This document shows, in pieces, positions 11,800 to 52,731 of a stretch of 64,000 nt of DNA; position 1 is the stretch's first letter, and every line of letters starts with the position of its first letter. Source of the DNA: Deltaproteobacteria bacterium (GTDB taxonomy: Bacteria > Myxococcota_A > UBA9160 > PR03); assembly GCA_035063765.1 (NCBI GenBank), contig JAPSFT010000022.1, positions 1-64,000 of the forward strand, given 5' to 3'. Position numbers and translations under genes: made by a program. Under the pieces are notes generated by a model, which was not told the origin of the DNA, searched no databases, and saw nothing but the letters and a program-made list of their open reading frames with translations.

Positions 11800-12420
11800 A
11801 TGCAGGACCGGAGCCTGGGGGTGCGAGCTCGCTGCCGGCGGGCGGCGGTGCTCGCGACGGCGGCGCTCGTGACGGTCCCGGCCTGGCTCGCGGCAGCGCC
11901 GGCGGGCGCCGTCTCGCTCGGGCTCTCGCCGCCCGCGGTGAGCCCCGTGCCGGGCGGCTCGTTCAGCGTCGACCTGCTCGTCGCGGACCTCGGCGGCACC
12001 GTCGTCGGCGCCTTCGACGTGACGCTCGGCTTCGACCCGCTGGCGCTCGCCGTCACCGGCGTGAGCTTCGACGTAGAGCTCGGCGCGATCCCGGCCGAGG
12101 CGAGCGCCGAGGCGATCGCTGGCAGCGGCACGCTCTCGCTCGCCGGGTTCTCGCTCCTCCCGGCGGCCGCGCTCGAGGCCCTCCAGGGCGACCCGGTCCG
12201 GCTCGCCACGATCGTGTTCGGGGTGACGAGCGCGGCGCCGAGCGCGATCACGATCACGGCGGCGCTGCTCGGCGACGGCGCGGGCGCACCGATCACGCTC
12301 ACCGCACCCCCATCCGGCACGAACGTGACACCGATTCCGGAGCCGGCGGGCACCCTGCTCTTCGGGTCGGGCCTCTGCCTGGCGGCCGTCGTCTCGCGGA
12401 GGCGCGCAGCGCCTGCCTGA
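11800..12420 (+). CDS. cohesin-like domain protein with PEP-CTERM anchor
   Basis: After a signal peptide (mature start near GAVSLGLSP) lies one domain of about 130 residues with the layout of bacterial cohesins: SPVPGGSFSVDLLVADL, FDVTLGFDPLALAVTGVSF, then IVFGVTSAAPSAITI. It ends in IPEPAGTLLFGSGLCLAAVV followed by SRRR, a PEP-CTERM sorting signal. ATG 11800 is chosen because GAGGAGG sits 7 nt upstream; ATG 11776 overlaps the previous stop. It is probably displayed on the cell surface. The upstream neighbour carries a dockerin-type segment, so the two may bind each other. Confidence 0.8.
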   Translation: MQDRSLGVRARCRRAAVLATAALVTVPAWLAAAPAGAVSLGLSPPAVSPVPGGSFSVDLLVADLGGTVVGAFDVTLGFDPLALAVTGVSFDVELGAIPAEASAEAIAGSGTLSLAGFSLLPAAALEALQGDPVRLATIVFGVTSAAPSAITITAALLGDGAGAPITLTAPPSGTNVTPIPEPAGTLLFGSGLCLAAVVSRRRAAPA

Positions 12421-13550: not shown

Positions 13551-14786
13551 CTAACGGACCCGTTCGTTGCGCCGGCGCCGGAGCGCAGCGAGCGACCCGA
13601 GCGCGGCGGCGGCGACGGCAGCGGCTCCCGCGCCCGGCTCCGGCACCAGCCGGAACAGCTCGCCGCCGGCGTCCACGAAGTAGAGCTCCCCGAAGCCGTC
13701 CTCGGCGATCGCGGTGATGTCCTCGATCTCGGCGCCCTGCGGCGTGACGTCGATCGTGCCGGTGCGCTCGACGACCTCCTCGGCTTCACCGGTCGACCGG
13801 TTCCAGCGCAGGCTCCAGATCTTGTGGCGGCAGTAGTCGGCGAAGAGGTAGAGGCCGTCGAGCGCCGGGTAGGCGCTACCGCGGTACACCGAGCCACCCG
13901 TCACCGATCCGCTGCACCAGCCCGAGCCGACGTGCGCGTACTCGAAGACCGGCCTCACCAGGCTCGGGTCGCCGCAGGGCAGCGCGGGCCTCGAGTCGTA
14001 GCAACTGCTCCCCTCCTCGACGTCCCAGCCGTAGTTCCGGCCGCCCGGGCTGTCGGCCCGCTCGACGTCGATCTCTTCGAAGGCGTTCTGGCCGACGTCG
14101 CCGATGTAGAGGTCGGCGGTCTCGCGGTCGAAGGAGAAGCGGAACGGGTTGCGCAGGCCCTTGGCCCAGTGCTCGGGCTCCCAGGGCACCGACACGTCGT
14201 CGAGGTCGAAGCGCAGCATCTTGCCGAAGTCCTGGGCGTCGTCCTGCGCACGATCCCCGCCGCCGCCGCCGCCGTCGCCGAGCCCGAGGTAGAGCCAGCC
14301 GTCGCGGATCGCGAGCGTCCCGCCGTTGTGGTTCGCCGCAGGTTGGTCGAGCTGGTAGAGGATCTGCTCGCTGGCCTCGTTGGCGTCGTTCGAGGTGGCC
14401 GGAGTGCCGGTCACGATGAAGCGCGAGAGGCGGCTCTCGAGGTCTCCCCCGGCCGTGGCGTCGGGAGCCGTGTAGTACACGAAGAACTGTCCGCTGTCGT
14501 AGAAGTCGGGGGCGAAGGCGAGGCCCAGGAGCCCGCCTTCGCCGTTGGTCTCGACGTCCCCTCGGATGTCGAGGAAGGCGCCGGGCAGCACGGAGCCGTT
14601 CTGCAGGACCCGGATCGTGCCCGCGCGCTCGACGATGAAGAGCCGCGCGTCGCCGGGCGGAGCCGCCACGGTCATCGGAGCGTCGAGGTCCGTCGCCACG
14701 CGCTCGGCGGACAGCTCCTGGGAACGAGCGGCGGCGGCGCCAAGGGTAAGGGCCAGGGCGATCATGGAGGCGAAGCGCGGGCTCAT
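13551..14786 (-). CDS. PQQ-type sugar dehydrogenase-like propeller with PEP-CTERM tail
   Basis: A 411-residue exported protein (signal peptide to about residue 22) of the glucose/sorbosone dehydrogenase beta-propeller family. It shows RLFIVERAGTIRVL, GEGGLLGLAFAPDF, NHNGGTLAIRDGWLYLGLGDGG, KGLRNPFRFSFD, IGDVGQNAFEEID and LFADYC. The His/Arg positions expected for PQQ and Ca binding (NHNGG, GLRNP) are present. The C-terminus VPEPGAGAAAVAAAALG followed by RRRR is a PEP-CTERM anchor, so it is probably surface-bound. The substrate is unknown. Confidence 0.87.
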   Translation of the reverse strand: MSPRFASMIALALTLGAAAARSQELSAERVATDLDAPMTVAAPPGDARLFIVERAGTIRVLQNGSVLPGAFLDIRGDVETNGEGGLLGLAFAPDFYDSGQFFVYYTAPDATAGGDLESRLSRFIVTGTPATSNDANEASEQILYQLDQPAANHNGGTLAIRDGWLYLGLGDGGGGGGDRAQDDAQDFGKMLRFDLDDVSVPWEPEHWAKGLRNPFRFSFDRETADLYIGDVGQNAFEEIDVERADSPGGRNYGWDVEEGSSCYDSRPALPCGDPSLVRPVFEYAHVGSGWCSGSVTGGSVYRGSAYPALDGLYLFADYCRHKIWSLRWNRSTGEAEEVVERTGTIDVTPQGAEIEDITAIAEDGFGELYFVDAGGELFRLVPEPGAGAAAVAAAALGSLAALRRRRNERVR

Positions 14787-14916
14787 GGGTCCCTCCTGAC
14801 TGACGGACTGACTGCCTGCGCAGGGTAGCCTCGAGCCCGCGGGGCCGTCTCGCCCCGGGCCGCCCCGTCCCGGCCTGTCCCGTTCCGGCCCCCGGCGCTA
14901 GCTTGCCCGGCTCCGC

Positions 14917-14994
14917 GGTGGGCGTAGCTCAGTCGGTTAGAGCGCCAGGTTGTGGCCCTGGAGGTCGGGGGTTCAAGTCCCCTCGCTCACCCCA
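14917..14994 (+). tRNA. tRNA-His (anticodon GTG)
   Basis: Acceptor GTGGGCG pairs with CGCTCAC, with the extra G at position -1 (14917) opposite C73 that marks tRNA-His. The anticodon stem is CCAGG/CCTGG with loop TTGTGGC (GTG), the T loop is TTCAAGT, and CCA is encoded at 14992-14994. Confidence 0.97.
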
Positions 14995-40335: not shown

Positions 40336-40977
40336 TCAGCGTTTTCCCCGGTCGGAACGCCCCGGGCGGCGCTCCGGGAGGAACAATCCGTGGAGCAGGA
40401 GCTCGTAGAGCTCGGCGAAGGCCTCGCTGAAGCGCAGCCGCGCCTCGGCCAGGAAGGCCGGGTCGTTGATGCGGGTGATGGTGACGAGCAGCATCTCGGC
40501 CACGAGGTGCGAATGGAGCGGCCGGAAGCTGCCCCGGGCGATCCCCTCCTCGACCAGCTCGCGCAGGAAGCGCACGCGCTCGCGCTGGTGCGCCTCGAGC
40601 AGGGCGCGCGCGGGCGCGAAGGCCTGGACGTCGGCGACGAACGCCGAGCTGGCCTTGCGCGACTCGCTGACGCCGGGCTCGAGGAAGGCGGCGATTCGCT
40701 CCTGGGGTGCCTCGTGGGTGAGCGCCCCCTGCCAGCCGAGCTGGCGCACCCGCTCGAGCCAGCGGCGCACGACGAGGAGGAAGATCCGCTCCTTGCTCGG
40801 GGCGATCTCGTAGAGCGTTCGCCGCGAGCAGCGCAGGGCCGAAGCGAGGGTCTCGACGGTCGTGGCTCGCAGGCCCGCCCCGAGGAAGTGCGCCTCGAGG
40901 GCGTCGAGCAGCGCCTCGCGGTCTCGGCGCGGGGGCGTGCGCTGCCCTCGCGCCTTCGGTCTGCTCGCGCCCGCCAC
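40336..40977 (-). CDS. TetR-family transcriptional regulator
   Basis: About 213 residues from GTG 40977. N-terminal HTH: DALEAHFLGAGLRATTVETLASALRCSRRTLYEIAPSKERIFLLVVRRW, the TetR DNA-binding domain. The remaining helices form a ligand pocket. The gene is upstream of the FAH/cupin unit in the same direction, with the operator-promoter at 40188-40222 in between, and divergent from the acyl-CoA ligase gene. It may therefore control one or both; the ligand could be an acyl-CoA or aromatic acid. Confidence 0.9.
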   Translation of the reverse strand: MAGASRPKARGQRTPPRRDREALLDALEAHFLGAGLRATTVETLASALRCSRRTLYEIAPSKERIFLLVVRRWLERVRQLGWQGALTHEAPQERIAAFLEPGVSESRKASSAFVADVQAFAPARALLEAHQRERVRFLRELVEEGIARGSFRPLHSHLVAEMLLVTITRINDPAFLAEARLRFSEAFAELYELLLHGLFLPERRPGRSDRGKR

Positions 40978-41048
40978 GCCGGGTTCCCTCCGCCCGGGCG
41001 ACGCTACCAGACGGCGGCCGCGGCGCGCCCGGCCGGGGCGCGGCTCGC

Positions 41049-42569
41049 GTGAGCGCGCCGACCTCGGCCTCGCTGCTGCGCCAGGCCCTCGCGCGCCATG
41101 GGAGCCGCACCGCCCTCGTCCACGGAGACGTGCGCTGGAGCTACGCCGACCTCGACCGCGAGTCCGACCGCGTCGCCGGCGGCCTGCGCGGCCTCGGCGT
41201 CGGCGCGGGCGACCGCGTCGCGCTGCTGCTCCACAACGGCGCCGAGTACGTGATCTCCCACCTCGCCCTCGCGAAGCTCGCCGCGGTGCGGGTGCCCCTC
41301 CACGACCTGCTCTCGCTGCCCGACGTCGAGCACGCCTTCGCCCACTCGGGGGCGCGGGCGCTGATCGCCCACCGCTCCCTCGCCGGGATCGTGCCCGCCG
41401 CCGCGCGGGGCCGCTGCGTCTTCGCGAACGACGTGGCGGGGGACCCGGTCGAGCCGGACTTCGCCTCGCTCGCGGGTGCGGGCCGCTTCGCCCCGGCCGA
41501 GGCCGACCCCGGCGCCCCGGGCCTGATCCTCTACACCGGCGGCACGACGGGCCGGCCGAAGGGGGTGGTCCACTCCTTCGGCGCCCTCGGCGTCGGCCTG
41601 CTGGCCCACGCGCTCTACGGCGAGATCGCCCCCGACGAGCACCTGCTCGTCGTCTCGCCGCTGCCGCACTCGGCGGGCTTCCACGTCGAGGCCGCACTGA
41701 TGCAGGGGGCGCGGGTGACCCTCCACGCGCAGTTCGACGCGGGCGCCGTGATCCGCAGCATCGCGGGCGAGGCCATCACCTGGACGTTCCTCGTCCCGAC
41801 GATGATCTACCGGCTGCTCGACCACCCGGCGCTCGCGGGCGGCGGCCTGGGCTCGCTGCGCACCGTCGTCTACGGTGCCGCTCCCATCGCCCCGGCGCGG
41901 CTCGCCGAGGGGCTCGCCCGCCTCGGCCCGGTCTTCCTCCAGCTCTACGGCCAGAGCGAGTGCCCGAACTTCGCGACCACCCTCTCGAAGGCGGACCACC
42001 TGCGCCCCGAGCTGCGGGGCTCCTGCGGGCAGGCCGTGCCGGCGGTGCGAGTGAGCGTCCGCGACCCGGCGGGCACGCCCGTCGAGGTCGGCACCGTCGG
42101 CGAGGTGTGCCTCCAGTCGAGCTACACCCTGCGCGGCTACCACGGCGACCCCGAGCAGAGTGCCGCCGCCTTCCACCCGGGCCGCTGGCTGCGCACGGGC
42201 GACCTCGGCTACCTCAGCGCGTCGGGGCACCTGTTCCTGGTCGACCGCGTCAAGGACATGGTGATCAGCGGCGGCATGAACGTGTACACCGCCGAGGTCG
42301 AGCGCGCGATCGCCGAGCTTCCCGGAGTGCGGCAGGTCGCGGTGATCGGGCTACCGCACCCCGACTGGGGCGAGGCGGTGACGGCGCTCGTGGTCCGCGA
42401 CGGCCCGGAGCCCGAGCGCGAGGCGATCCTCGCCCACTGCCGCGCGCGGCTCGCGCGCTACAAGGTGCCGAAGCGGATCGAGCTCGTGGCGAGCCTGCCC
42501 CTCACCGCGTACGGAAAGATCGACAAGAAGCGGCTGCGCGCCGGGCTCGCCCCGGCCGGCGCGGGATGA
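41049..42569 (+). CDS. AMP-dependent acyl-CoA synthetase/ligase
   Basis: A 506-residue ANL-superfamily ligase. LILYTGGTTGRPKGVVHS is the P-loop, VYGAAPIAPARL and LQLYGQSECPN the A4/A5 motifs, GRWLRTGDLGYLSASGHLFLVDRVKDMVISGGMNVYTAEVERAI the hinge region, and AYGKIDKKRLR holds the catalytic Lys. It activates a carboxylic acid to the acyl-CoA thioester; chain length is not deducible. Divergent from the TetR gene with a 71 nt gap. Confidence 0.93.
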   Translation: MSAPTSASLLRQALARHGSRTALVHGDVRWSYADLDRESDRVAGGLRGLGVGAGDRVALLLHNGAEYVISHLALAKLAAVRVPLHDLLSLPDVEHAFAHSGARALIAHRSLAGIVPAAARGRCVFANDVAGDPVEPDFASLAGAGRFAPAEADPGAPGLILYTGGTTGRPKGVVHSFGALGVGLLAHALYGEIAPDEHLLVVSPLPHSAGFHVEAALMQGARVTLHAQFDAGAVIRSIAGEAITWTFLVPTMIYRLLDHPALAGGGLGSLRTVVYGAAPIAPARLAEGLARLGPVFLQLYGQSECPNFATTLSKADHLRPELRGSCGQAVPAVRVSVRDPAGTPVEVGTVGEVCLQSSYTLRGYHGDPEQSAAAFHPGRWLRTGDLGYLSASGHLFLVDRVKDMVISGGMNVYTAEVERAIAELPGVRQVAVIGLPHPDWGEAVTALVVRDGPEPEREAILAHCRARLARYKVPKRIELVASLPLTAYGKIDKKRLRAGLAPAGAG

Positions 42570-45419: not shown

Positions 45420-48400
45420 CTACGGTGTCCCGTCGCGACGGCTCCGCTCGCCCGAGCGCCGCAAGCGACGCCGCGCCAGGAGCGCCAGCGCCAGCGCCGC
45501 AAGCGGAGCCGCCGCGTCCGGCTCAGGACACTGCTCGAGCGTTCCGATGCAGTCGTCCACGTCGTCGCGCACACCGTCGCCATCGGCGTCGCTGTCGAGA
45601 AAGTTCGGGGTGCCGTCCGCGTCGATGTCGCCGGGAGGCTCGTCGGCGTCGGGCAGCTCGTCGTTGTCGGCGTCGCTGTCGCAGGCGTTCGGAAGCCCGT
45701 CGCCGTCGCGGTCGGTGGTCATGCCCTCGCTCGAGTTCGGAAGGCCGTCGTGGTCGCAGTCGCTGCCGTCGGGATACGGCGGGAATCCCGGCGTGTCGAG
45801 GAAGAAGCTCGCGCGCGCCTCGCGCGTGAAAGGAGGCGGTCGCGGCTGCGCCAGCACGCTCTCGGTGTCGGCCTGCTCGCCCGGCGCCAGGCGCGCCGAC
45901 GAGGTGGCCTCGCAGCGCACCACCGCGTCGTAGCGGCCGCGGTGCTGCAAGCCCGTGAGCACGGCGCGCGCGCCGACCAGCGATTCGTCGAGCGCGAGCG
46001 GAACGCCGTGGAGCGCGATGTCGTTCGGACCATTGATCTCCGCGGTGTAGGTGGTGCCGCGGCCGAGCGCGTCCTGGAAGGAAGCCGTCGCTTGGATGGC
46101 CGGGGAGGTTCCCCCGAGCCGGGTGTCCGCCGGCGACGCGCTCGCCCAGCAGTCGGGCAGCGGATTCTCCAGATGGATCCAGTAGTAGAGCTGCTGCGGA
46201 ATCGGATTGGTCGAGAAGAGGACGAGCGTCCACTCGCCCGGCTGCGGGGCCGCGACGCGCGCGAGCCGGTAGAAGGCGTCGTGTACGACGGAGGGGTGCG
46301 TGTGGGTCAGCACCGGCGCGCCCCCCGGCGCGAGCAGCCGGAATCCCGGCGCCCAGGTGTTGCCCAGGTCGTTGCGGTTCGAGAGCAGGATGTCGAGCCG
46401 CGTGGTGCCGGGCTCGACGCGGATCGGCACGTTCACCGGCGGGCCCGGCGTGGTGGGACCGCCGGGGTCGAGCGAGAGCGGCGTGCGCGTGGCGAGGGGC
46501 GTCTCGCCGCGCAGGCGCGCGTAGAGGTCCGCGTAGATCGTGGGCAGCTCGAGCGCGGTCGGCGCGTCGTACATCTCGCCGCCCGTCTGCTCGGCGATCT
46601 GGGAGAGCTGCTCGCCGCTGGCCGCGTCGCCGACCGGCATGGTGTAGACCACGACGCCGGCGTCGCGCAGCTCGTTGGCGACCGCGAGCGGATCGGCGCC
46701 TCGCATGTTCTCGCCGTCGGAGAGGAGGAGCACGGCCTGCGTGCGGCCGCCGGCCTCGGCGGCGAGCAGGTCGCCCGCCGCAGCGAGCGCGTCGCCGATC
46801 GCGGTGGTGCCGTCGTGCTCGAGCGCATCGACCGCGTCCGCGATCTCCGCCACCTCGTTCGTGTCCGGCAGCCCGCTTCCGGTCGGCACCGCGGGCGCCA
46901 GGCTCAGCTCTTCGACGACGTCGCCGTCGAAGGACAGGAGCGCGACCTCCATGCCGGTGCCCGCAACGAGATTCGCGAAGCCGCGCACGCCCGCCTTGGC
47001 CCAGTCGAGACGCGTTCGCGTGTCGTTCACGTACTCGCGGTCGGTGCGCATGCTGCCCGAACGATCGACCACGACGACCACCTGGTCCGCGCCCTCGACT
47101 TCGACGTCGAACTCGATCGGGATCGCGCACGGGATCGGCTCCAACGAGACCGGCAGCCCGGCCGGCTGCTCGAGCTCGAGGCCGTAGGCCCGATCCGCGT
47201 AGTCGAGCAGCTTGGCCCAGTCCGACTGGATCGGGCGGTCGTTGCGCAGGTCGCTGCGCGTGGTGGCGGCGGCCTCCCAGCGCTGCGTAGCGGTGTTCCA
47301 GAGCATTTCGCAGTTCTCGGTCTCGGTGCAGAGCCCGAGCTGCTGGAAGTCACCAGCCAGAACCCGCGTGCCCTCGCTGAACGAGGTCCGCTTCAGCGTT
47401 CCCCCGCTTTGCGCTTGGCGCTCGGAGAAGTCGTCGAAACGGACCCCAAGCGTGGCGTCGGGAGCCCCGTTCGCGAGATCTGCGATCGGGATCGCGCACG
47501 AGTCCGCCGAAGTGCCGGCGGTGCCGTTCACGCTGGCCACCCGCCGGTGATGGAACAGGCCGCCGTTCGGCTCGATCACGTCGAAGCTCGGCGGATCCTC
47601 CATCACGACGGTGCACGACTCGAGCCAGACCGGAAGATCCGCCGTTCCCTCGTCGAAGTGCTTGCCGTCCATCGCGAAGTGGAGCTGCCAGGCGTTCAGC
47701 GCGACGTGCTCGGCGTACACGTACAGCGCATGCGCGGAGCCCTCGTCGTAGCCGGTCACGTCGCCCAGGGCGTCGATCCAGTCCGTGACGAACCGCCGCG
47801 TGGCGGTGGCGTCGGCGGTCGCGAAGCTGGTCGGATCGAAGAGGCCGCCGGGCAGATCCTCGCCGAGCCAGCCGCCCACCGAGACGGTGTCGCCGGCGCG
47901 CGGTGCCGGGCAGGTGTTCTCCGCCAGCACCTCGTCGCCGCGCAGCAGGTCGTGGTTCAGCGCCGTCGAGATCTCGCTCATCAGCGCGCCGGTCGGACAG
48001 CTCTCACCGAGATTGCAGTCGGCCGCGTCGAAGCAAGGGCGCCCGGTCCCGACACCGCCGCCGGTCACGCACTGCTGCCAACCCGCCTGCTGCATGATGG
48101 TGTGGTTGTTCTCGTCCATCGCGTCGAGCTCGAAGGAGCGGCCCTGTCCGCAAGCGCCGCCCATGCGCCGCTGCTCGTCGTACTGGTCGCCGAGGTCCAT
48201 GACGAGGTGCCCGAGCTCGTGCGCGAAGACGTCCGAGCGGACGTCCTCGTGCGAGAGGTAGACGTGGCCGTCGTTCTCGCTGAGGCGCCCGTGCGCCGAC
48301 GAGCGCGGGGTGGTACCCGGCGGCTGATACCAGATGTCGCCCGCCGGCTCCGCCGTCCCGCCCGCCGTGAGCCGCATCGTCGCAATGCGCATCTGCCCGT

Positions 48401-48620
48401 CGGTGGCGTCGCAGAGGATGCGGCTCGCGCGGCCCGCCTGCTCCTGCACGCGGGCGATGTCCTCCGGCTGCGGAGGGAAGCGGAAGTGGAAGTTCAGGTG
48501 GATCTCGCCGTCGTCCGCGTCGACGAAGCCGGCACCCGCGAGGGCGCGGTCCGCCGCGGCGATCGACACGAGAACGATGAACACGGTCGTGAGTCGATCC
48601 GTTCGCAGCGGGGTATCCAT
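45420..48620 (-). CDS. CLCA-like secreted metalloprotease/VWA protein with TSP3-type repeats and PEP-CTERM tail
   Basis: A 1066-residue protein: signal peptide (about 1-29); zincin-type N-terminal domain with H134-E135-x-x-H138 (FAHELGHLVMDLGDQYDE) and several Cys (to about 440); VWA domain (about 510-690) with MIDAS DRSGSM; a beta-sandwich region (about 720-960); calcium-binding DxDxDGxxN repeats (about 965-1035, DCDHDGLPN, DRDGDGLPN); and tail PEPDAAAPLAALALALLARRRLRR. The order metalloprotease-VWA-beta domain is that of eukaryotic CLCA proteins, with the downstream acidic residues near the HExxH as in that family. Probably a surface adhesin/protease. Confidence 0.88.
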   Translation of the reverse strand: MDTPLRTDRLTTVFIVLVSIAAADRALAGAGFVDADDGEIHLNFHFRFPPQPEDIARVQEQAGRASRILCDATDGQMRIATMRLTAGGTAEPAGDIWYQPPGTTPRSSAHGRLSENDGHVYLSHEDVRSDVFAHELGHLVMDLGDQYDEQRRMGGACGQGRSFELDAMDENNHTIMQQAGWQQCVTGGGVGTGRPCFDAADCNLGESCPTGALMSEISTALNHDLLRGDEVLAENTCPAPRAGDTVSVGGWLGEDLPGGLFDPTSFATADATATRRFVTDWIDALGDVTGYDEGSAHALYVYAEHVALNAWQLHFAMDGKHFDEGTADLPVWLESCTVVMEDPPSFDVIEPNGGLFHHRRVASVNGTAGTSADSCAIPIADLANGAPDATLGVRFDDFSERQAQSGGTLKRTSFSEGTRVLAGDFQQLGLCTETENCEMLWNTATQRWEAAATTRSDLRNDRPIQSDWAKLLDYADRAYGLELEQPAGLPVSLEPIPCAIPIEFDVEVEGADQVVVVVDRSGSMRTDREYVNDTRTRLDWAKAGVRGFANLVAGTGMEVALLSFDGDVVEELSLAPAVPTGSGLPDTNEVAEIADAVDALEHDGTTAIGDALAAAGDLLAAEAGGRTQAVLLLSDGENMRGADPLAVANELRDAGVVVYTMPVGDAASGEQLSQIAEQTGGEMYDAPTALELPTIYADLYARLRGETPLATRTPLSLDPGGPTTPGPPVNVPIRVEPGTTRLDILLSNRNDLGNTWAPGFRLLAPGGAPVLTHTHPSVVHDAFYRLARVAAPQPGEWTLVLFSTNPIPQQLYYWIHLENPLPDCWASASPADTRLGGTSPAIQATASFQDALGRGTTYTAEINGPNDIALHGVPLALDESLVGARAVLTGLQHRGRYDAVVRCEATSSARLAPGEQADTESVLAQPRPPPFTREARASFFLDTPGFPPYPDGSDCDHDGLPNSSEGMTTDRDGDGLPNACDSDADNDELPDADEPPGDIDADGTPNFLDSDADGDGVRDDVDDCIGTLEQCPEPDAAAPLAALALALLARRRLRRSGERSRRDGTP

Positions 48621-48849
48621 GAGACCCTCCGCGATGGGGCCCCATTATGCCTGCTCTCGCGGGGAATGGGGGGCATTCTCGGCCGGCGAGGCGTGTCGGC
48701 CGTTCGCGTCGGGTGGAGCGAGCAGACGGCGCCTGCGGCCCTTCCGCCGCGCGTGGCCGGTTCGCAGCTCGGTGTCCCCCCTACCTGGCTGCGTCCGGCC
48801 GTGCTACGCAGGGCTGCAGCGCAATGGCTTTGCGTGGAGGGGAGGAGCC

Positions 48850-49989
48850 TTGTCGCGATCGTGGCATGGGGCGGCACTCGCCGGCTGGATTGGGCTCGCG
48901 CTGTGCGTCGGCGGCGCGAGCGCGCGTGCGGCGGGCACGCTCTACTTCTCCGAGCTCTACAACCCGACCTTCGACGACGGCAACCTGCGCCGCTCGACGA
49001 CGAGCGGCGGCGCCGCGCCGATCCTGGCGAGTCCGGGAGGCGGCCTGCGCGGTGTGGCGGTCGATGCGGTCCACTCGAAGCTTTACTGGACGGACCGCGA
49101 TGTCGACGCCATCTACCGCGCGAACCTCGACGGCAGCGCGGCTGTTGCGATCGTGACGCTTGCCGACATCCTGCTCGTCACCCCCCAGGCGATCCGCGTC
49201 GATCCGCTCGGGGAAACGATCTACTGGGGCGAGCTGAGCGGATCGATCTACCGCGCCGATCTCGACGGCTCGAACCCGGCCCCGCTCATCACGACCAGCT
49301 TCGCGGGCGGGCTCGACCTCGATCTCGATCACGGAAAGGTGTACTGGACGTCGAACGACGGCGCCGGAAGCACGCGCGTGATCCGCCGGGCCAACCTGGA
49401 CGGAAGCGTCGTCGAGACGCTCGTCACCGGGCGCGAAGCCTCCGATCTGGCCGTGGACGCGGCCGGCGGCAAGCTCTACTGGACGGACTTCGTGAACGAC
49501 ATCGTCGCGCGCTCCAACCTGAACGGCAGCGGCTTCGAGTCGCTCTACGAGGTGGGCGCGAACGACAATCCCGGCGGCATCGCGCTCGACCTCGAGGACG
49601 GCAAGGTCTACTGGGGCCAGGACATCTCGGGACCCTCGCCGTACCTGGGCAAGATCATGCGCATGAATCTCGACGGAAGCGAGCAGGAGAACGTGCTCTC
49701 CGGCAGCGCGATCGGCTCCGTCGTGGACATCGCGCTCGTGGTCCCCGAGCCGGGCGCGACGCTCGCCGGCTTCGCCGCACTCGCGGCCCTCGCAGCCCGC
49801 AGCCGGCGCAAGCGACGCCGCGCCAGCGGCGCGAGGGTCGCGCCCGCGGCGAGGCCGGTTGCCCAGCCCAGCGGCTCCGGCGCGCGGAAGGCCGCGATGG
49901 CGACCGCCCCGCCGCCTTCTCCGTCGGCGATCTCCTGGAAGGACCAGAACCGCTGCGAATCGCTCGGGTCGAGCACGGTGGCGCTGTAG
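48850..49989 (+). CDS. YWTD/LDL-receptor-type beta-propeller with PEP-CTERM tail and abnormal 3' extension
   Basis: From TTG 48850 (GGAGGGGAGGAG upstream) a signal peptide to about residue 30 leads into six or so propeller blades: KLYWTDRDVDAIYRANLDGS, TIYWGELSGSIYRADLDGS, KVYWTSNDG, KLYWTDFVNDIVARSNLNGS, KVYWGQDISG. VVPEPGATLAGFAALAALAARSRRKRRR is the sorting tail. Normally a stop follows, but the frame runs about 58 residues further into the antisense of the convergent gene. The extra tail suggests the native stop was lost at a recombination joint. Confidence 0.8.
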   Translation: MSRSWHGAALAGWIGLALCVGGASARAAGTLYFSELYNPTFDDGNLRRSTTSGGAAPILASPGGGLRGVAVDAVHSKLYWTDRDVDAIYRANLDGSAAVAIVTLADILLVTPQAIRVDPLGETIYWGELSGSIYRADLDGSNPAPLITTSFAGGLDLDLDHGKVYWTSNDGAGSTRVIRRANLDGSVVETLVTGREASDLAVDAAGGKLYWTDFVNDIVARSNLNGSGFESLYEVGANDNPGGIALDLEDGKVYWGQDISGPSPYLGKIMRMNLDGSEQENVLSGSAIGSVVDIALVVPEPGATLAGFAALAALAARSRRKRRRASGARVAPAARPVAQPSGSGARKAAMATAPPPSPSAISWKDQNRCESLGSSTVAL

Positions 49990-50776: not shown

Positions 50777-52731
50777 GTCGAGTAGCCCGGGGCAGTTGCC
50801 CACCCCGGGCCCTCTCCAGATCCGGACAAGGAGATTTCCACCATCCGGCTCCTCCGTGGAGGCGGCTCGTGGCTACCGGCCCCAGATGCGGACCGTGATC
50901 CGGGGACGCGGGAACGGAAGCTGTTCGAGAAGAGCAGCGAACCGCTCCCAGGTGAGACGTGTGCGCTGGCTGCGACGACACAGCCACTTGTACCAGGCCC
51001 GCTTCGCCGCTTCGACGAGCAGCAGCAGACTGCGGAAGTTGCCGCTGACGCCGAAGTAGTTGAAGTGGCCCCGCAATCGTCGCGTGAGCGCTGCGTGCTG
51101 AACCCTTACCGGAAGGTGCCGATGGAGATGGCACCAGTCGGTGATGGACTGGATCGCCCGTCTCAGGCTCGCACGCCGAGTCTTGCACGTGATCCACCAA
51201 CGACCCCGTCGAGAGCGCGCCCAGTAGAGCGTGAACCCGAGGAAGTCGAAGGTGGCCAGACCTTTCCCGCTCTTCTGCCCCGCCGGCGGGCGCCGGAAGG
51301 GCAGCAGCCGGGTCTTGTCCGGGTGCAGGGTCAGTCCGAAGCGCGCAAGCCGCTTGCCCAACACCGCCAGGACACGCCGCGCGTCCTCCTCGTGCTCGAA
51401 GCCGATGACGAAGTCGTCGGCGTAACGGATCAGGGTGGCCCTGCCCCGCAGCCGCGGCTTCACTTCGGTCTCGAACCAGAGGTCCAGCACGGAGTGCAAG
51501 TAGACGTTGCCGAGCAGCGGCGAGAGCACCGACCCTTGGGCGGTGCCGGTCTCCGGCGCGGAGAGCTCCGCGCCGTCGAGCACGCCCACGTGCAAACACT
51601 TGCCGATGAGCCGCAACAGCGACCCATCGGCAACCCGAATCTCGAGCATCTCCTTCAGCTTGGTGCGATCCAAACTGTCGAAGAAGGACACGATGTCGGC
51701 CTCGAGAATCCAGCTCACCTCGCCCCAGTGCACGATCTGGTTCAGGGCTCGGATGGCGTCATGGGCACTGCGTCCGGGCCGGAAGCCGTATGAGCAGTCC
51801 AAGAAGTCCTGCTCGTAGATCGCCTCCAGCACCTCGCGCACGGCGTCCTGGACCAGCTTGTCCTCGAACGCCGAGATCCCAATCGGCCGCGTCTTGCCCT
51901 GTTCCTTCGGGATGCGGACCCGTCGGATCGGCTGATGGCGATACCGCTTCGCCACGAGTCGCGCGTGCAGGTCCTGGAGGTTCGCCTCCAGCGCCTGCCC
52001 GTACTCCTCCTTCGTGATCCCATCCACACCCACCGCCGCATCCTTGCGCATGCGGTGATAGGCTCGTTCCAGGGCCGACACATCGAGGAGATGCGCCAGC
52101 GAGTGGAACCGTCCTTCGGGCTCTCGTTGCGCTCGTTCCACTACCTTCAGCAGTTCCGGTGACACGTCTCCCAACGTCGAGGCGTTGGACATGGTTCCCT
52201 CCTGAAGCTCATCTCCACACGGGCCGCCTTTGCTCGGCCGGGTCCGGGCACCACCCCGTTCCCCGACGTCGACGCTCCTATGCAGCCCTCCGACTCCCTC
52301 GCCCCCTTCGGTCGTGGCTTCGGTTCCCCTTGCGCACGGCCTACCTCGATGCGGGCGCTTGTTCTTGGCCGGCCGCGCGTGCGCCTGCAAACGCGCGACA
52401 CGTCGGAGACGGATCTCCGGCTCTCCGCATCACCGGTTGCGATCGAGGCGACGCGAGGGCCTCCCAGGTTCCTGGGCCGTCCTCTTCCTGCGTGCCGTGG
52501 TCGTACACCCCGCCGGATACGATCCCCTCCTCGCCCATCAAGACGGAGAGGTCGTCGTCGCCTTCAGGTCAAACAGAACCCTGGGCATCCGGGATGACAT
52601 AGATTTCGAGGCCGCAAACCCCACGGCCCACACGCTCGCGTGCCTACGCTTCGCCGGTCGTGTTGCCGCGACCGTCGCCAGGCTCGCTACCGGCTCGGGC
52701 GGGCTCACCCTTGGCCGGGCGGGCTTCGCAC
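50777..52731 (-). mobile_element. bacterial class C-like group II intron with RT
   Basis: The minus-strand 5' end at about 52731 reads GTGCGAAGCCCGCC with GAGCCTGGCGACGGTCGCGG about 60-80 nt inside, the class C intron 5' pattern. Downstream of the RT gene, a domain V-like hairpin (50851-50817, GAGCCGGATG...GTCCGGATCTG with a GAAA loop) and a domain VI-like hairpin with a GCCCCGGGCTACTCGAC end (to 50777) complete the intron. Length is about 1.95 kb, typical. The 3' exon is R1 copy 1; the 5' exon is different sequence, so the locus has been rearranged after insertion or by it. Confidence 0.75.
50873..52192 (-). CDS. ltrA: group II intron reverse transcriptase/maturase
   Basis: A 439-residue RT. 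Landmarks are GVDGITKEEY (RT0/1), GKTRPIGISAFEDKLVQDAVREVLEAIYEQDF, CSYGFRPGRSAHDAI, EADIVSFFDSLD, TAQGSVLSPLLGNVYLHSVLD and RYADDFVIGF with catalytic YADD at 257-260. The C-terminal maturase X domain is followed by RIWGR and no HNH endonuclease, as in class C introns. ATG 52192 (MSNASTLGDV) is preferred; the frame is open further upstream. Intact, so it could still support splicing. Confidence 0.93.
   Translation of the reverse strand: MSNASTLGDVSPELLKVVERAQREPEGRFHSLAHLLDVSALERAYHRMRKDAAVGVDGITKEEYGQALEANLQDLHARLVAKRYRHQPIRRVRIPKEQGKTRPIGISAFEDKLVQDAVREVLEAIYEQDFLDCSYGFRPGRSAHDAIRALNQIVHWGEVSWILEADIVSFFDSLDRTKLKEMLEIRVADGSLLRLIGKCLHVGVLDGAELSAPETGTAQGSVLSPLLGNVYLHSVLDLWFETEVKPRLRGRATLIRYADDFVIGFEHEEDARRVLAVLGKRLARFGLTLHPDKTRLLPFRRPPAGQKSGKGLATFDFLGFTLYWARSRRGRWWITCKTRRASLRRAIQSITDWCHLHRHLPVRVQHAALTRRLRGHFNYFGVSGNFRSLLLLVEAAKRAWYKWLCRRSQRTRLTWERFAALLEQLPFPRPRITVRIWGR

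Follow-up and report, generated by a model that had tools for sequence, protein, structure and literature searches.

The DNA examined here (the window) comprises positions 1 to 64,000 of contig JAPSFT010000022.1, forward strand, from the Deltaproteobacteria bacterium assembly GCA_035063765.1 (Myxococcota_A; UBA9160; PR03). An open reading frame (ORF) of 1066 amino acids at 45420..48620 on the minus strand, the strand of all of its features described below, encodes what its alignments indicate to be a relative of the CLCA proteins of animals, referred to here as the window protein. The ORF has an ATG start with GGAGG 5 bases upstream. A signal peptide is predicted at residues 1-28 (48537..48620) from a basic n-region, a hydrophobic core, and ALA-G; the structural model has a predicted local distance difference test score (pLDDT) below 50 there. 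On the basis of the signal peptide, the GGAGG, and homologues with conserved active-site residues, the ORF is a genuine gene. Promoter and terminator scans for this gene found none.

A zincin metalloprotease domain (residues 30-147; 48180..48533) was assigned from models, fold matches, and alignment by hhalign to human CLCA1. Its HExxH motif, HELGHLVMDLGDQYDE, starts at residue 134 and opens the conserved active-site stretch HELGHLVMDLGDQY (residues 134-147; 48180..48221), which contains H134, E135, H138, and D145. Residues 148-238 (47907..48179), delimited by alignment and modeled with low confidence, hold GACGQG, NHTIM (a possible Met-turn), and a Cys-rich segment. There follow a beta-rich domain that resembles FlgE_D2 (residues 243-410; 47391..47894) and a linker defined by alignment (residues 411-508; 47097..47390) with WN..T.RWE and SDW motifs, the latter standing opposite RSTWEV of CLCA1. 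The VWA domain (residues 510-704; 46509..47093) was supported by fold matches and was above the Pfam cut-off at residues 513-695 (E 1.9e-15, 58 bits); the DRSGSM of its metal ion-dependent adhesion site (MIDAS) is at residue 519. Next come a beta-sandwich domain (residues 705-817; 46170..46508), seen in the model and by hhalign, and an Ig-like domain (residues 818-942; 45795..46169), seen in the model and by alignment. The protein ends with Asp-rich TSP3-like repeats (residues 950-1022; 45555..45773) and a PEP-CTERM-like tail, PEPDAAAPLAALALALLARRR (residues 1032-1052; 45465..45527). A Pfam scan of the window protein at E <= 10 gave no match to PF08434 (CLCA_N), PF09471 (peptidase M64), PF07589 (PEP-CTERM), or PF07559 (FlgE_D2). 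The initial annotation had described a zincin motif, a VWA domain with MIDAS DRSGSM, and a beta-sandwich in CLCA order, which is borne out by the Pfam VWA match, the AlphaFold model, and hhalign to CLCA1; it did not mention the additional beta domain that separates the protease from the VWA domain.

Thirteen N-terminal protease domains (N-domains) were aligned (P and L labels denote related proteins or loci, and G labels the genomes searched). The two His, one Leu, the Tyr, and the GxG were invariant, the active-site Asp was found in 12 of the 13, with Glu instead in L099, and the catalytic Glu was kept in 10. Because these residues are conserved across the alignment, the HExxH of the window protein is not a chance motif. 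By analogy with zincins, H134 and H138 would be metal ligands, and D145 is likely to be the third. In L100, L101, and L102 the catalytic Glu is replaced (HALGH, HLLGH, and HLFGH), while the two His, the Asp, and the motifs of the fold remain; the three form one clade (100/100 support), suggesting that the Glu was lost once. Such a clade is what would be expected if the window protein were mainly a VWA adhesin whose zincin domain is a relic, serving structure or zinc binding and retaining little protease activity, and animal CLCAs are also reported to include many with substituted active sites (PMC3650047). However, 10 of the 13 rows, that of the window protein among them, keep the full HExxH, and the Asp is nearly invariant, and we regard a relic as unlikely.

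The full-length AlphaFold model (mean pLDDT 71.5) contains, in order, a zincin, a beta-rich domain, a VWA domain, a beta-sandwich, and an Ig-like domain, these names being our own reading of its structural elements. The matches listed for the whole model in fold searches were VWA domains. The N-domain model was modest (pLDDT 61). Foldseek placed snapalysin first for it (4hx3, E 6.3e-5), followed by matrix metalloproteinases, and a second fold comparison returned ADAM and snake-venom metzincins with Z of 8-9.5. Among these were 1qua (Z 9.0, root-mean-square deviation 3.2, 124 aligned) and 1kuf, the latter being the top structural match for CLCA_N in PMC3650047. The searches brought up no solved structure of a CLCA protease domain for comparison, and M64 chains were absent among the N-domain fold matches listed, which is no evidence against M64. 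The predicted N-terminal fold of the window protein thus resembles a metzincin-like zincin, and the CLCA-type zincin fold proposed at first withstood comparison with snapalysin, matrix metalloproteinases, and ADAM-type metzincins.

For comparison with human CLCA1 we used a stand-in sequence that is not a verified record; we take it to be a fair one because it scored 462 bits against the full length of the Pfam model PF08434. A 17-row family profile aligned collinearly with it by hhalign over 386 columns (P 5.9e-14), with window residues 465-905 opposite CLCA1 270-679 (VWA, beta-sandwich, and Ig-like domains). The N-domain profile gave a separate alignment of 103 columns (P 3.1e-6), which includes ASRILCDATDG of the window family opposite ASLYLFEATGK of CLCA1. 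When each segment was shuffled 100 times, no shuffle scored as well as the real alignment for the N-domain (49.3; best shuffle 23.0), the half of the N-domain before the active site (25.7; best shuffle 19.2), the VWA domain (75.7; best shuffle 19.1), or the beta-sandwich and Ig-like region (28.9; best shuffle 23.3). Four proteins of the phylum, L089-L092, aligned with CLCA1 from the protease through the Ig-like domain (565 columns, P 2.7e-17) and also with the window family (P 3.4e-34).

Human CLCA1 and CLCA2 and the window protein share the HExxH, an Asp 11 residues past its first His, a Tyr two residues later, a Cys-rich segment, a MIDAS-bearing VWA domain, and a beta-sandwich with an Ig-like domain, all in identical order. 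The window protein differs from them in its lack of a PF08434 match, in the extra FlgE_D2-like domain before the VWA, and in having TSP3-like repeats and a PEP-CTERM-like tail in place of fn3. Its alignment with CLCA1 stops at CLCA1 residue 679, after which the Asp-rich repeats begin, and Pfam found no fn3 in it, a test of limited sensitivity, in that Pfam lists no fn3 in the stand-in CLCA1 either. Animal CLCAs are described as consisting of CLCA-N, VWA, a beta-sheet domain, and fn3, with self-cleavage near residue 700 (PMC10669480). A striking local match was also observed between the Ig-like domain of L092 and CLCA1 640-679, DDGGGADATKDDGVY and DNGAGADATKDDGVY, respectively.

Profile matches were likewise obtained to M64 IgA protease chains (4df9 and 9ekk), which share the active-site helix AHEFGHGLLGLGDEY; a single M64 domain gave P 1.6e-8 over 36 columns. 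TIGR03296, an M6 model, weakly matched residues 119-156, far under the cut-off. The window protein could on this evidence be a secreted endopeptidase of the M64 or M6 type that gained a VWA domain independently, its likeness to CLCA being convergence on a common domain order. However, the M64 similarity was limited to the helix, with no match seen beyond it, and for the segment preceding the helix 4 of 100 shuffles were as good with an M64 protein (L032), compared to 0 of 100 for CLCA1. The collinearity with CLCA1 from VWA to Ig, and the alignment of L089-L092 with CLCA1 from protease to Ig, also speak against such an origin, which we consider very unlikely. Membership in M64 was itself rejected, since PF09471 had no match in the window protein and only the active-site helix matches. 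Judged from the alignments, the window protein is related to CLCA by descent and M64 is a more distant neighbor, as M64 likewise is in PMC3650047.

The published definition of CLCA rests on CLCA_N, PF08434 (PMC3650047). Weak matches to PF08434 below its cut-off were found in P0008, L081, L083, L086, and L088. Matches over the cut-off numbered 0 in 377 genomes of the phylum, 0 in the 3 genomes that carry L098, L099, and L101, and 0 in 369 genomes of the class of G377; with no PF08434 member in the searched genomes, no bacterial CLCA_N profile could be built. On its sequence, the window protein is a CLCA relative and not a member by the published definition. The initial reading as CLCA holds for kinship, in that the homology extends beyond the motif, but not for strict membership.

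The gene is present in a single copy in its own genome. Matches to its N-terminal 480 residues were found in 3 of the 79 genomes from its order and in 12 of the 377 from its phylum (E <= 0.001, own genome included in both counts); the five remaining family genomes, G001-G005, gave no match. With a profile built from eight N-domains, matches were obtained in 39 of the 377 phylum genomes; many of these are weak, extend barely past the active-site helix, and are not taken to be CLCA-like. A contig scan using the single window protein found no match, and one using four close N-domains found 8 loci, including L097, L103, and L104, which are apparently the same as L037, L038, and L039 and were counted once. 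The scan added a Polyangiaceae metagenome-assembled genome, a Gammaproteobacteria metagenome-assembled genome, and three more contigs. In alignments of approximately 1000 residues, the window protein shares 37% identity with L098 and 32% with L099.

A 26-row tree placed the window protein in a 12-row clade with 100/98 support. The stand-in CLCA1 grouped with L088-L092 (86/81) on a long branch. The phylogeny with eukaryotic CLCA that had been suggested for this protein does join an animal sequence to bacterial ones, but with that single animal sequence it is too small to fix the direction of transfer. In G355, a window-type protein is present as two near-identical copies (L038 and L039), and a more distant CLCA-like protein, HEWGHYFYGLPDEY, occurs three times (L083, L084, and L085). 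A plasmid search matched 4 records, all archaeal by name, in parts of the VWA or C-terminal region only. No shared gene neighborhood was seen in the loci of the relatives, where matches were the gene itself or overlapping frames; the exception was an AMP-binding-enzyme frame at 40722-42566, which has one match in L100.

Approximately 165 residues between the Cys-rich segment and the VWA domain of the window protein are without a counterpart in CLCA1 and P0008. All 12 compared proteins of the 100/98 clade carry this beta domain between protease and VWA. FlgE_D2 (PF07559, cut-off 22.7 bits) was over the cut-off in L098 (33.0 bits) and L099 (42.6 bits); the L038 segment scored 21.5 bits and L100 was weak (16.8). 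It was not detected in the window protein, P0002, P0005, P0006, P0007, L101, L102, whole P0003, or whole P0004. Seven members, among them the window protein, were pooled in a profile that aligned with the D2 domain of FlgE from the window genome (P 2.1e-7, 0 of 200 shuffles as good), and a profile without L098-L102 did so as well (P 6.8e-5, 0 of 200 shuffles); one of the window protein and P0002 alone did not, 1 of 200 shuffles being as good. Because the window protein aligns with L098 and L099 over approximately 1000 residues, its inserted domain is most likely the same as theirs. PF07559 does not appear promiscuous in this genome, where its one match is FlgE itself. At the level of the family profile the domain resembles the FlgE/FlaE D2 domain, but its host proteins in the window family are non-flagellar, and in the window protein alone it goes undetected.

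The C-terminal part varies more. L045 has a dockerin over the cut-off and P0002 a weak one; FG-GAP was found in P0003 and P0004, a C-type lectin in P0005, and RTX with HYR in L098. The relatives thus differ after the Asp-rich repeats, and it is the core that is conserved, in contrast to the part that would serve delivery or attachment. In L045, TSP_3 scored 22.3 of 25 bits. Outside the window clade, L079 has a PEP-CTERM match just below the cut-off. The tail of the window protein scored 9.9 bits against a profile built on 13 PEP-CTERM-like tails encoded in its genome, a score reached by 0 of 2000 shuffles of the tail (1903 returned a score). In the genome, 3 exosortases score above the cut-off, and PEP-CTERM is matched 27 times at E <= 0.01. 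Like PEP-CTERM cargo, the tail has PEP, a short hydrophobic stretch, and a C-terminal Arg cluster; it differs in having PEPD where most of the tails compared have PEPG, and in falling below PF07589. A PEP-CTERM tail is thus plausible from its sequence: the exosortase tail first proposed resembles those of its own genome, and exosortases are present, but it stays under PF07589 detection. The TSP3-type Ca repeats of the same proposal have the expected Asp-rich look, but the match is weak.

Dockerin, C-type lectin, FG-GAP, and RTX modules are typical of secreted or matrix proteins. They would fit secretion of the window protein into exopolysaccharide or the medium, where it would degrade foreign polymers or proteins, the tail serving as a release signal and self-cleavage playing no part. 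In L099 (2044-5508), on the other hand, the last 125 residues match an outer-membrane beta-barrel (PF13505) just over the cut-off, a possible built-in anchor that suggests cell attachment there. We find such a secreted degrader doubtful.

From the domain order, the homology, the conserved active site, and the sorting machinery in the genome, all directly observed, we infer export, metal binding, proteolysis, self-cleavage, ligand binding, and anchoring. With a probability of roughly 60%, we read the window protein as an exported, probably surface-held CLCA relative that joins a Zn protease to a VWA/beta-sandwich/Ig unit and has an inserted FlgE_D2-like domain, Asp-rich repeats, and a PEP-CTERM-like tail. 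It would be exported by Sec, hold Zn through H134, H138, and D145 with E135 as the base, and bind metal and a ligand at the MIDAS of the VWA domain. A stalk formed by the repeats, and the tail once processed by an exosortase of the genome, would bring the protein to the outer surface or matrix. On the model of CLCA1 and CLCA2, its possible targets are a partner molecule and the protein itself, the cut in the latter case falling in the loop at residues 914-930, which lies before the last Ig-like strand, roughly opposite the CLCA1 cleavage region (pLDDT about 50-65). A self-cut would yield an N-terminal protease/VWA fragment that either stays with or leaves the anchored stub. CLCA2 requires zinc for its cleavage, which takes place in trans and is abolished in E165Q (PMC10669480); the N-terminal product of CLCA1 is 1-695, and its C-terminal product remains non-covalently attached (PMC6851300). 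Judged from sequence, proteolysis and surface attachment of the window protein are likely and adhesion through the VWA domain is possible; self-cleavage, by analogy, is possible.

Several findings weigh against this reading. The loss of Glu in L100-L102 indicates that protease activity is not general or essential to every member, and the active-site helix, taken alone, is at least as similar to that of M64 IgA protease. PF08434 had no match in the window protein, and the homology of the beta-sandwich and Ig-like region is weak by itself (48 columns, P 0.0015). No cleavage-site sequence shared with CLCA1 is visibly conserved in the alignment of residues 914-930. The Asp-rich repeats had an E of 0.93 for TSP_3 (PF02412), under the cut-off, and PF07589 did not match the tail. 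Finally, a gene that is single-copy and was not found in the five other family genomes searched does not serve a core function.

Other features of the window were also observed. The divergent neighbor at 48334-49989 on the plus strand encodes YWTD repeats of LDL-receptor class B, and its frame contains a PEP-CTERM-like stretch and runs on past it. At 50873-52390 on the minus strand, 2.3 kb from the CLCA-like gene, is a reverse transcriptase ORF (RVT_1, E 1.6e-32), which we take to be group II intron-like. Further ORFs with PEP-type tails end near 12420 (+), 13551 (-), 24519 (-), 34876 (-), 38058 (+), 54453 (+), and 54450 (-), the last two being convergent with ends within a few bases of each other; a PEP-tail frame at 13876-14928 is probably spurious.

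CLCA proteins shape mucus in the airways and gut, and the origin of their self-cutting design is unsettled. Bacterial CLCAs were published in 2013, some with animal architecture, for example in Plesiocystis pacifica (Lenart et al., PMC3650047), and the basic idea of bacterial CLCA proteins is therefore not new. The published prokaryotic proteins include delta-proteobacterial ones with CLCA-type architecture, and substituted active sites are known among them; they are defined by CLCA_N, however, which the window protein misses (PMC3650047). The new points are the inserted beta domain in a 12-protein clade, the C-terminal exchange, and the subclade without the catalytic Glu. This variant looks undescribed: a literature search at the level of titles returned no recognized description of the domain combination, and the parts of PMC3650047 that were consulted do not mention the inserted domain. 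The same paper favors transfer from animals to bacteria. The bacterial breadth seen here makes the direction from bacteria to animals worth testing, and we tentatively suggest, at less than even odds, that the CLCA architecture represents an ancient and varied family of bacterial surface proteins, well represented in Myxococcota, from which animal CLCAs arose, the window clade being a branch with D2 inserted and the C-terminal anchor exchanged. A bacterial family wider than the CLCA model of Pfam, with intermediates that align from protease to Ig, would offer bacterial models for the mechanism, and with such intermediates the direction of gene transfer can be tested. The presence of a D2 domain of the hook type in a surface protease, together with the exchange of several kinds of C-terminal module on one core, would show how a conserved extracellular machine is retargeted by bacteria.

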